Below are positions 2,932-48,088 of a stretch of DNA of 64,000 nt, in pieces (position 1 is the stretch's first letter; the number at the start of each line of letters is the position of its first letter). The DNA is taken from contig NZ_CP117884.1 of assembly GCF_028736235.1 (NCBI RefSeq), positions 1,116,001 to 1,180,000 on the forward strand, read 5' to 3'. The notes beneath the pieces are model-generated. The model did not search any database and was not told the DNA's origin. It saw nothing but the letters and a program-made list of their open reading frames with translations. The stretch comes from Lacticaseibacillus pabuli (GTDB taxonomy: Bacteria > Bacillota > Bacilli > Lactobacillales > Lactobacillaceae). The translations under genes were made by a program, and so were the position numbers.

Positions 2932-2960
2932 TTGACTGAGATTGACATGGCTTGTACAAT
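2932..2960 (+). promoter_or_regulatory. Promoter of the candidate prophage sRNA
   Basis: TTGACT (2932-2937), a 17-base spacer and TACAAT (2955-2960) begin directly after the DUF3800 stop codon. An overlapping TTGACA (2942) and TATAAT (2960) are badly spaced relative to each other. Confidence 0.6.
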
Positions 2961-2966
2961 ATAATT

Positions 2967-3071
2967 GCGGGCAGGAAACTGCACCGAGTAAAGTTCCATT
3001 GATGATAGAAATATTAAGCGTATGTTAAGTACGCCATCGGAACTTGGCAAGCCCCTTGGGGGCTTATTTTA
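2967..3071 (+). ncRNA. Candidate structured small RNA of the prophage
   Basis: There is no ORF here, but the segment is bounded by a promoter and an intrinsic terminator. Visible folds are GCAG-gaaa-CTGC (2971-2982), a long-range stem AAGTTCC (2991-2997) with GGAACTT (3039-3045) that encloses the hairpin GCGTA/TACGC (3018-3034), and the terminator AAGCCCC/GGGGCTT with a U-rich tail (3049-3071). The predicted RNA is about 100 nt. I do not recognise the family; it could be a phage regulatory RNA or an antisense RNA. Confidence 0.5.
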
Positions 3072-3084
3072 TTTCGTCATTTAT

Positions 3085-20177: not shown

Positions 20178-20459
20178 ATGATTGTATATCCATCAATTGA
20201 TAAGTTGCTGGCACAGGTGCCATCTCGTTACTCATTGGCCGTACTTGCTGCAAAGCGGGCACACCAGATTGAAAATGGTGACATCAAGATGTTGGCCGAA
20301 TACAAGTCACCACGGACGGTTGGCCAGGCACTTGAAGAAGTTGCTGAAGGTGACGTAATTATCGATCCAGACTCCAAACTTCTCGAACGTGACGCTGAAC
20401 GGCTCGACCGCGAAGAAGACACGCGTAAGGCTGAAGAAGACGACGGTCTCGAAGACTAA
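20178..20459 (+). CDS. rpoZ: RNA polymerase omega subunit
   Basis: Omega stabilises the beta' subunit during RNA polymerase assembly. The 93-residue product starts with the conserved [27 protein letters not shown] and carries the [16 protein letters not shown] segment. The C-terminal 30 residues are very acidic ([20 protein letters not shown]), longer than in Bacillus. The neighbour coaBC that follows rpoZ in many Firmicutes is missing; a repeat array occupies the gap before priA. Confidence 0.94.
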
Positions 20460-20460
20460 A

Positions 20461-20911
20461 GCAAACAACGCAGCGGCGGCGATGGTTTCGAACCATCACC
20501 GCCGCTGTTTGCGTTAGTCTTCGGTCGCTCCGCCGCACACTTTAGAATGGCTCCGGGGCGCAGAAACCTGCGGCTAACATGATTCGGGTCTAACCCAGCA
20601 AAACCGCTGGCTTAAACCCGAATCCCGTTAGTCCTCGGTTTCTAAGCGCGTCCCTCCGCACACTTTAGAACGGCTCCGGGGGGCAGAAACCTGTGGCTAA
20701 CATGATTCGGGTCTAACCCAGCAAAACCGCTGGCTTAAACCCGAATCCCGTTAGTCCTCGGTTTCTAAGCGCGTCCCTCCGCACACTTTAGAACGGCTCC
20801 GGGGGGCAGAAACCTGTGGCTAACATGATTCGGGTCTAACCCAGCAAAAACCGCTGGCTTAAACCCGAATCCCGTTAGTCCTCGGTTTCTAAGCGCGCCC
20901 CTCCGCACACT
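20461..20911. repeat. Hairpin repeat array A (about 123-bp units)
   Basis: Three full units repeat with periods of 123, 123 and 124 bp (CCGCACAC at 20533, 20656, 20779 and 20903). Each unit is a long nested hairpin: a conserved left arm ending AGAAACC..GGCTAAC, an insert with arms GATTCGGGT/ACCCGAATC, an apical stem CCAGC/GCTGG around an AAAACC-type loop, and a right arm GTTAGTCCTCGGTTTCT. The unit boundary is TCCGCACACTT. A first, truncated unit (20461-20530) has a different GC-rich insert directly after rpoZ and may also act as its terminator. The same family occurs at 47283-47672. Confidence 0.85.
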
Positions 20912-20967
20912 TGTTTCATCTGCTATAATTAAGGCCATAGAATTTATCGAAAGGAGGGTTGCGCGCC

Positions 20968-47269: not shown

Positions 47270-47282
47270 TTTACTTAAACGG

Positions 47283-47672
47283 GCCGCTCCGCACACTTTA
47301 GAATGGCTCCGAGGCGCAGAAGTCTGCGGCTAACAAAAGAAGGGCTCAAACTCACAAAGACCGTGAGTCTGAGCCCTTCTTCCGTTAGTCCTCGACTTCT
47401 AACCGCGCCTCTCCGCACACTTTAGAACGGCTCCAGGGCGCAGGAGCCTGCGCTTAACAAAATGATGGTCTTGCCCAGCAAAGACCGCTGGCCAAAACCA
47501 TCAGTCCGTTAATGCTCGGCTCCTGAACGCGCCCTTGCGCACACTTTATAGAACGGCTCCGAGGCGCAGAAGTCTGCGGCTAACAAAAGAAGGGCTCAAA
47601 CTCACAAAGACCGTGAGTCTGAGTCATTCTTCCGTTAGTCCTCAACTTCTAACCGCGCCTCTCCGCACACTT
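47283..47672. repeat. Hairpin repeat array B (about 124-125-bp units, same family as 20461-20911)
   Basis: Three units with CGCACAC at 47290, 47414, 47539 and 47664 (periods 124, 125, 125). The first and third units share one insert type (arms AAGAAGGGCTCA/TGAGCCCTTCTT, apical CTCAC/GTGAG; the third has a few changes in one arm). The middle unit has another (arms ATGATGGT/ACCATCAG, apical CCAGC/GCTGG). All have an AAAGACC apical loop. Flanking arms covary: AGAAGTC/GACTTCT and GAGGCGC/GCGCCTC in the first unit, AGGAGCC/GGCTCCT and AGGGCGC/GCGCCCT in the middle unit. There is no coding potential. Confidence 0.87.
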
Positions 47673-47746
47673 ATAATCAGTCCTAAGTCCATTGACGCCA
47701 AGCGGTTGCACCGGTATCCTATATAGGTATGTAAAGGACTGATGAC

Positions 47747-48088
47747 ATGGAACTGGCAAAGACAAATCGCATGAATGATTTACTTGAGTTTTATGGCAAA
47801 TTACTCACGGATAAACAGCAATCGTACCTTGAGCTGTACTATGGCGACGACTACTCCCTTGGCGAAATTGCCGAGGACTTTGGCGTCTCCCGGCAGGCCG
47901 TGTACGACAACATTCGGCGCTCCGCTGCTGCCCTTGAAGAATATGAGGGTAAGCTCCATCTGCTGGAAAAGTTTACGGGTGCTAATGATGCGGTCGATAC
48001 TTTGGCCAAATACTTGCACGACCAGTATCCAGACGACAGTCACTTGCGCCACCTGCTGGGCAAAGTCCAACAACAAGTTGCGCGCTAG
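47747..48088 (+). CDS. ylxM: YlxM-family HTH protein, SRP accessory
   Basis: The 113-residue helical protein has a sigma-factor-like HTH ([39 protein letters not shown]). YlxM proteins precede ffh in Firmicutes; in streptococci the homologue binds SRP RNA and Ffh and adjusts their GTPase cycle. The order ylxM-ffh is kept here with 13 bases between the genes. A possible promoter TTGACG-17-TATCCT lies about 30 bases upstream. Confidence 0.92.

Follow-up and report, generated by a model that had tools for sequence, protein, structure and literature searches.

The stretch of Lacticaseibacillus pabuli chromosome analyzed here (64,000 nucleotides; "the window") carries two tandem arrays, A and B, of a structured repeat. 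Each array consists of three units on the forward strand, is preceded by a stray copy of the unit tail, and stops just short of promoter-like sequence (as judged by eye). Array B is followed by a gene at 47747, which we take to be ylxM-like. The features are:

20532-20542, + strand: stray tail ahead of array A (from sequence)
20543-20665, + strand: array A unit 1 (sequence and covariance model)
20666-20788, + strand: array A unit 2 (sequence and covariance model)
20789-20912, + strand: array A unit 3 (sequence and covariance model)
20924-20929, + strand: promoter-like TATAAT, 3' of array A unit 3 (by eye)
47276-47298, + strand: stray copy of the unit tail (23 nt) ahead of array B (sequence family D2)
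47299-47422, + strand: array B unit 1 (sequence and covariance model)
47311-47317 with 47405-47411, + strand: helix P1 of array B unit 1 (predicted fold)
47318-47324 with 47394-47400, + strand: helix P2 of array B unit 1 (predicted fold)
47356-47362, + strand: apical loop of array B unit 1 (predicted fold)
47401-47404, + strand: one-sided AACC bulge of array B unit 1 (predicted fold)
47423-47546, + strand: array B unit 2, with arms AGGGCGC/GCGCCCT and AGGAGCC/GGCTCCT (sequence and covariance model)
47549-47672, + strand: array B unit 3, a near-copy of unit 1, partly decayed (sequence and covariance model)
47692-47720, + strand: promoter-like TTGACG, 17 nt, TATCCT, between array B and the gene at 47747 (by eye)

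An earlier note on this DNA had described array B as three units of about 124 bp whose arms change in pairs, and this description held: the start-to-start spacing is 124 and 126, AGAAGTC is matched by GACTTCT in unit 1 and AGGAGCC by GGCTCCT in unit 2, GAGGCGC/GCGCCTC is swapped for AGGGCGC/GCGCCCT, and the apical stem reads CTCAC/GTGAG or CCAGC/GCTGG around AAAGACC. Unit 3 has two mismatches in its inner stem and one A.C closing the AGAAGTC arm; thus compensation is strong but not perfect. The arms AGAAACC/GGTTTCT reported for array A are also present, but the start given for that array (20461) was wrong: the units begin at 20543, and the sequence from 20461 on belongs to a terminator-like hairpin distinct from them. 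The long terminator-like hairpin at 20440-20531 (by eye) stands at the end of a gene, presumably rpoZ-like, and its 3' side (GTTAGTCTTCGG) resembles the unit 3' arm, as if the gene end had recruited unit remnants. A block similar to the promoter-like stretch at 47692-47720 precedes the ylxM-like gene in several relatives. The window also carries a DUF3800-I RNA at 2960-3078 on the + strand (Rfam RF02969; 77.6 bits versus a cut-off of 44.2), which has no relation to the repeats.

For the 16 own-genome units RNAalifold predicted 41 base pairs, with double changes at 25 of them. The predicted fold is a single long imperfect hairpin per unit (about 115-126 nt, starting with TAGAAC, TATAAC, GAAACG and similar), which comprises a short basal helix (P0), P1 (7 bp), P2 (6-7 bp), a mismatched internal loop, P3, the freely varying P4 and P5, and an apical loop of AAARANC; a one-sided AANC bulge lies on the 3' side between P1 and P2. 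The AANC bulge, the internal loop and the AAARANC loop, all unpaired, are fixed and conserved across Bacilli, while the letters of the stems swap in pairs. The unit ends pair through the short basal helix alone, with no terminal inverted repeats of the MITE type (15-30 bp), and TAGAACGGCTCC and TCCGCACACTT are not reverse complements of each other (by eye).

Double changes recurred in wider sets fitted to the covariance model: at 39 of the 41 pairs among 55 units from about 25 genomes, at 38 of 41 in a second set of 88 units (many from genome G019, the others from other genera), and at 35 of 41 among 17 units from other families of Bacilli. In the 55-unit set the covariation score was 0.771 versus 0.180 after shuffling (slid controls, at most 0.144), and 93.6% of cells paired versus 61.6% after shuffling. 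Since such alignments (A2 to A6; A1 and A7 were not model-fitted) are shaped by the model itself, a covariation test with a tree-based null was added. It is our own R-scape-like re-implementation rather than R-scape itself: on a FastTree tree, parsimony substitutions are redistributed within branches, and each column pair receives an APC-corrected G statistic. With the model alignment the test found 28 of the 41 structural pairs significant, and none among the column pairs that lie outside the structure. On a sequence-only MAFFT alignment (53 units, 40 genomes), 28 column pairs were significant, including 25 of 37 testable structural pairs; 27 of the 28 coincided with a predicted pair to within one column, and the remaining one (5-121) was on the diagonal of the basal helix. 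Covariation no greater than expected from phylogeny had been named beforehand as the finding that would count against the fold; on both alignments it exceeded the tree-based null. Thus the proposal that the fold rather than the sequence is maintained was borne out by several sets and by this test on two alignments.

Matched arms are the rule within a single genome as well. In G019, every pair of P1 was Watson-Crick in 86 of 122 units, where shuffled arms gave about 35 (maximum 46), and every pair of P2 in 98 of 123, where they gave about 25 (maximum 39); the 123 units were drawn from 80 loci as a subset of all, some of them beyond the list of 150. The hairpin insert freely exchangeable like a cassette, as initially suggested, is therefore too strong a description, because arms match far above random pairing. 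A minority of units are nevertheless chimeric in their arms, and therefore units recombine. One site is common to G006 and G019: there most differences between the elements fall on matched positions, and the adjoining terminator is identical; at two sites common to G005 and G019 the unit looks replaced. Whole-unit exchange between loci thus seems to take place, so that paired differences at a single locus can reflect conversion rather than stepwise compensation. Carried further, this would dispense with selection on the fold: palindromes would stay matched by template switching from arm to arm or by conversion of whole units. Recombination and replacement of units, local homogenization of arrays, and the scarcity in P1 and P2 of intermediates with a wobble or a one-sided change are what such a process would leave. 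We nonetheless consider it improbable: i) the AANC bulge and the internal and apical loops persist amid sequence turnover, where arm copying would erase them, and the asymmetric bulge and internal loop in particular should have been removed by arm-to-arm repair alone; ii) there are many kinds of matched arms across genomes, and this varied pool together with the tree-based test calls for a constraint on the fold.

Mismatch types gave no consistent strand signal. An excess of A.C cells in the distal stems of the 55-unit set had pointed to the reverse strand as the working strand, an idea dropped after the larger set: there the distal stems held 236 A.C versus 28 G.T cells, with three positions of a single alignment contributing 137 of these A.C cells, and the proximal stems 22 A.C versus 176 G.T, with 127 of these G.T cells coming from two pairs next to the internal loop. 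Within P1 and P2 the counts were 12 A.C and 31 G.T, the latter out of about 1,860 cells.

The own chromosome contains 34 full units at 16 loci, six of them in the two window arrays. These were called with covariance model R1, trained on 16 own-genome units, a full unit being one of at least 111 bits; 34 of the 57 matches listed were kept, and reverse-strand and partial ones were dropped. TCCGCACACTT occurs 23 times in the genome (reversed control, 0), at least one occurrence (L002) looking like a chance match inside a gene. A stray tail stands on the left side of 15 of the 16 arrays (by eye), and these tails resemble the tails of their own array more than those of other arrays (0 of 2000 permutations); outside this genome a stray tail is present beside some units only. 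No autonomous copy was found in the genome, where the 36 matches to the 5' half of the unit were the 34 units and two remnants.

Beyond L. pabuli, the family is present in 28 of 30 genomes of the genus (own included), at 0 to 101 matches per species. With R1, units were found in 29 of 60 relatives; with a second model, R2, in 63 of 395 genomes of the order (24 of 80 genera); and in a survey of the class in 18 of 398 genomes, including five families outside the order. As eight candidates per genome were scored in the order and class surveys, copy numbers there are lower bounds. A DHFR of one unit-rich genome from another family is most similar to PDB chains 4m7v and 4m7u of E. faecalis, from which it clearly diverges. 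G019 carries at least 150 units in 123 arrays (61 plus, 62 minus). One G019 unit matched 25 plasmid records (Lacticaseibacillus, Pediococcus and Lactiplantibacillus), and units of two other genomes matched no plasmid. BLAST searches with array B against plasmids and against phages and a phage search with one unit of another genome gave no match either; these three queries, covering the window arrays and L183, turned up neither a phage nor a plasmid copy.

This distribution bears on a role as double-stranded or cruciform DNA, in which the units would be sites for nucleoid, gyrase or replication proteins, like the BIMEs of E. coli. Their intergenic position, often between transcription units and beside terminators, and their nearly Watson-Crick stems agree with such a site; the spread of copy number within one genus, the plasmid copies and the lack of strand or replichore bias among arrays (36/31 and 25/31, with the position of the origin assumed) make it a poor candidate, to which we give little weight.

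The two edges of the arrays differ in what adjoins them. Among 121 G019 arrays (two of the 123 were dropped as they came without flanks), an A-tract came next to the 3' edge in 36, and a Shine-Dalgarno sequence with a start lay within 30 nt of it in 23; at the 5' edge both counts were 0. A looser scan found 36 starts at the 3' edge versus 4 at the 5' edge. The A-tracts stand beside opposite-strand terminators, a perfect stem of at least 6 bp following closely in 18 of the 36 versus 5 of the 85 other arrays, and the spacers ahead of the Shine-Dalgarno sequences are 67% T versus 29% at 74 background sites. Many other 3' edges run into promoter-like sequence (by eye) or into another unit (17 of 63). 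The left end is GCCC or CTCCC in 34 of 121 arrays, mostly behind variant units, which retain an intact P3-P5 hairpin and have a short ending such as TTTACGCCC in place of the 3' arms of P1 and P2; in many G019 arrays a variant unit stands directly 5' of a full one. A second recurrent left flank in G019 ends in TTGCGTTC. Two near-identical single-unit loci (G019:C1:838043-838163 and 1892474-1892594) share a 3' flank that reads like the reverse complement of the 23S rRNA 3' end, and are presumably copies beside rRNA operons.

Placement right before a Shine-Dalgarno sequence would also fit a regulatory RNA, and so counts against a mobile element. As part of transcripts, in 5' leaders, intercistronic stretches or next to terminators, the hairpin would act in cis, setting mRNA stability, termination or translation via a conserved host protein or RNase. 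The 23 starts and 36 A-tracts at the 3' edge, none of which has a counterpart at the 5' edge, are in keeping with this, as are the copies inside operons and the motifs conserved across Bacilli. On the other hand, units lie in either direction relative to genes and the right-hand genes are varied, so that the consistent orientation plus gene association by which a riboswitch or other cis-regulatory RNA is recognized is absent, the oriented 3' edge being a partial match; copy numbers are very different among related species, and G.U pairs are rare in P1 and P2. We therefore regard a cis-acting RNA as unlikely, if less far-fetched than the two alternatives above.

Occupancy differs among species. 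Upstream of the ylxM-like gene, no scoring unit was found in 20 Lacticaseibacillus loci (19 so named and one MAG) using R1, which is less sensitive far from its own species, one locus offering only 436 nt of upstream sequence; L. pantheris alone has units near this gene, located downstream. In G019 a three-unit array lies between two genes, the nearer of which we take to be hisB-like from its translated start. The distance between flank matches at this site is about 420 nt in G019 versus 41 in G005, 41 in G028, 51 in G006 and 14 in G016; it is likewise shorter in G002 (220), G012 (203), G018 (203) and G022 (191) versus 504-602, while G023 is ambiguous (512 versus 521) and G029 yielded one flank match only. 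At six sites examined, a unit is present in one of G005 and G019 and absent from the other (flanks about 80% identical), and one of the unfilled sites retains a 3' remnant. Short alleles at three plasmid sites were considered as empty sites and rejected: the unit ends remain wholly or in part, and these alleles are therefore read as hairpin deletions. The sites compared, which are too diverged or are deletion alleles, showed neither an exact pre-insertion sequence nor a target duplication, and no transposition event was seen among the compared loci. Some unit sites are old and common to several species, which counts against mobility, as do these negative results, the phage and plasmid queries that drew a blank, and the failure to find an autonomous copy in the own genome or, among the families searched, a candidate enzyme.

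As drivers, a RAYT or a group II helper were rejected, neither being tied to copy number in a search covering the Y1 and group II families. The Y1 (IS200/IS605-type) transposase (PF01797) is present in 13 of 30 genus genomes and absent from G000, G005, G016 and G019; the group II maturase is present in 4 of 30 and absent from the same four. The own genome has neither.

Of the three suggestions made at the outset (a modular structured RNA, a cruciform DNA element, a mobile unit with exchangeable inserts), the mobile unit fits best in view of spread, copy number, plasmids and occupancy differences, although not with freely exchangeable inserts. The family is probably a non-autonomous mobile repeat of Bacilli, of the MITE/BOX/EFAR kind, recognized as a folded single strand of RNA or DNA. 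Several lines of evidence lead to this view: i) loci filled in one species are unfilled in others; ii) units occur in both orientations; iii) the 3' edge is directional; iv) plasmids carry copies; v) hairpin deletions keep both ends; vi) G019 holds its large number of copies; vii) covariation exceeds the tree-based null. A trans-acting enzyme or host factor would read the shape, that is, a rigid stem with its unpaired motifs set at fixed distances, and stems would then drift only in matched pairs. Units would insert between genes so that the 3' edge meets an AT-rich start or a terminator, recombination between units would make arrays grow and shrink, and effects on neighboring genes would be secondary. 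More tentatively, and with the odds rather against it, the element could be a single-stranded hairpin defined by shape across the whole class: its motifs would be read by an enzyme or host factor of Bacilli which, needing neither a Y1 transposase nor the reverse transcriptase of a group II intron, would spread it in a directional way to terminators and to sites where transcription or translation begins.

None of the 4227 Rfam 15 models matched the arrays or 12 loci of relatives at the gathering score, and the hits below threshold were microRNA models. A literature search, with most subscription journals outside its coverage, found no description of the element, nor is it described in the accessible parts of PMC2267715, PMC3049150, PMC3446304, PMC6542083, PMC3733652, PMC11109978, PMC8632094 and PMC3496567. 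The earlier statement that no described family fits thus has these negatives behind it, but is not secure, since the enterococcal EFAR may be an element of this kind. EFAR is reportedly about 170 bp, of variable assembly and inserted at stem-loops. Like the present unit, EFAR/Efa-1 is an intergenic, strongly folding repeat; the present unit, by comparison with descriptions of EFAR only, would differ as a single hairpin preceded in its own genome by a stray tail. These own-genome tails are a possible second small hairpin, present in other genomes in part only. Efa-1 of E. faecalis has 163 nt, 65 (18) copies and an adjacent stem-loop pair (PMC2267715), and EFAR is counted among the MITEs of enterococci (PMC3733652). 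The present unit resembles MITEs in being dispersed, structured and non-autonomous, and presumably noncoding given its 124-nt palindromic form.

For REP sequences with RAYT and for the attC sites of integrons, the substrate is a folded single strand that carries bulges or mismatches, and the likeness to them is one of working principle only. REPs are described as 20-40 bp with a GTAG end (PMC3733652), whereas the present units are about 115-126 nt without a GTAG-type 20-40 bp palindrome, in a genome without a Y1 transposase. BOX of Streptococcus pneumoniae is built of composite tandem modules in variable number, structured, dispersed, slow-moving and probably parasitic (PMC3049150); it is structured, dispersed and tandem like the present unit, but consists of boxA, boxB and boxC modules, while the present family has one repeated unit with private covarying arms, across Bacilli. 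The bcr1 repeats of the Bacillus cereus group are high-copy, intergenic and MITE-like, some on plasmids and often in mRNAs (PMC3446304, PMC6542083), and repeats of this type are described as confined to that group and as having a TTTAT motif (PMC6542083). They are alike in copy number, intergenic position and MITE-like character and are set apart here by description. MRSC-65-2 is a mobile or repeat motif found dozens of times per genome, with a long stem and a UYCCGG repeat (PMC11109978); the present units have no UYCCGG repeat (by eye).

The units form a real family of structured interspersed repeats, apparently undescribed, to which EFAR may turn out to belong. In its workings it is like MITE, BOX, bcr1 and EFAR elements and unlike the REP/RAYT system. 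Bacteria commonly carry small structured repeats, and among the best-described families several (BOX, bcr1 and EFAR) are known from a single genus or group; the present family keeps a detailed fold across Bacilli despite sequence turnover, reaches at least 150 copies in one genome and adjoins gene starts and terminators. It thereby makes testable what moves repeats that lack a visible transposase, and whether gene expression in food and probiotic bacteria is altered by them; with the covariance model, annotators could locate its members. Some plasmid copies lie within PTS operons, in either direction. Near-identical PTS operons stand on plasmids (L191, L192 and L196 versus L197): the L. paracasei and P. 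inopinatus plasmids have a unit between IIB and IIC and the L. plantarum plasmid a hairpin-deleted form, so that the operon with and without the hairpin is a natural pair for an expression test.
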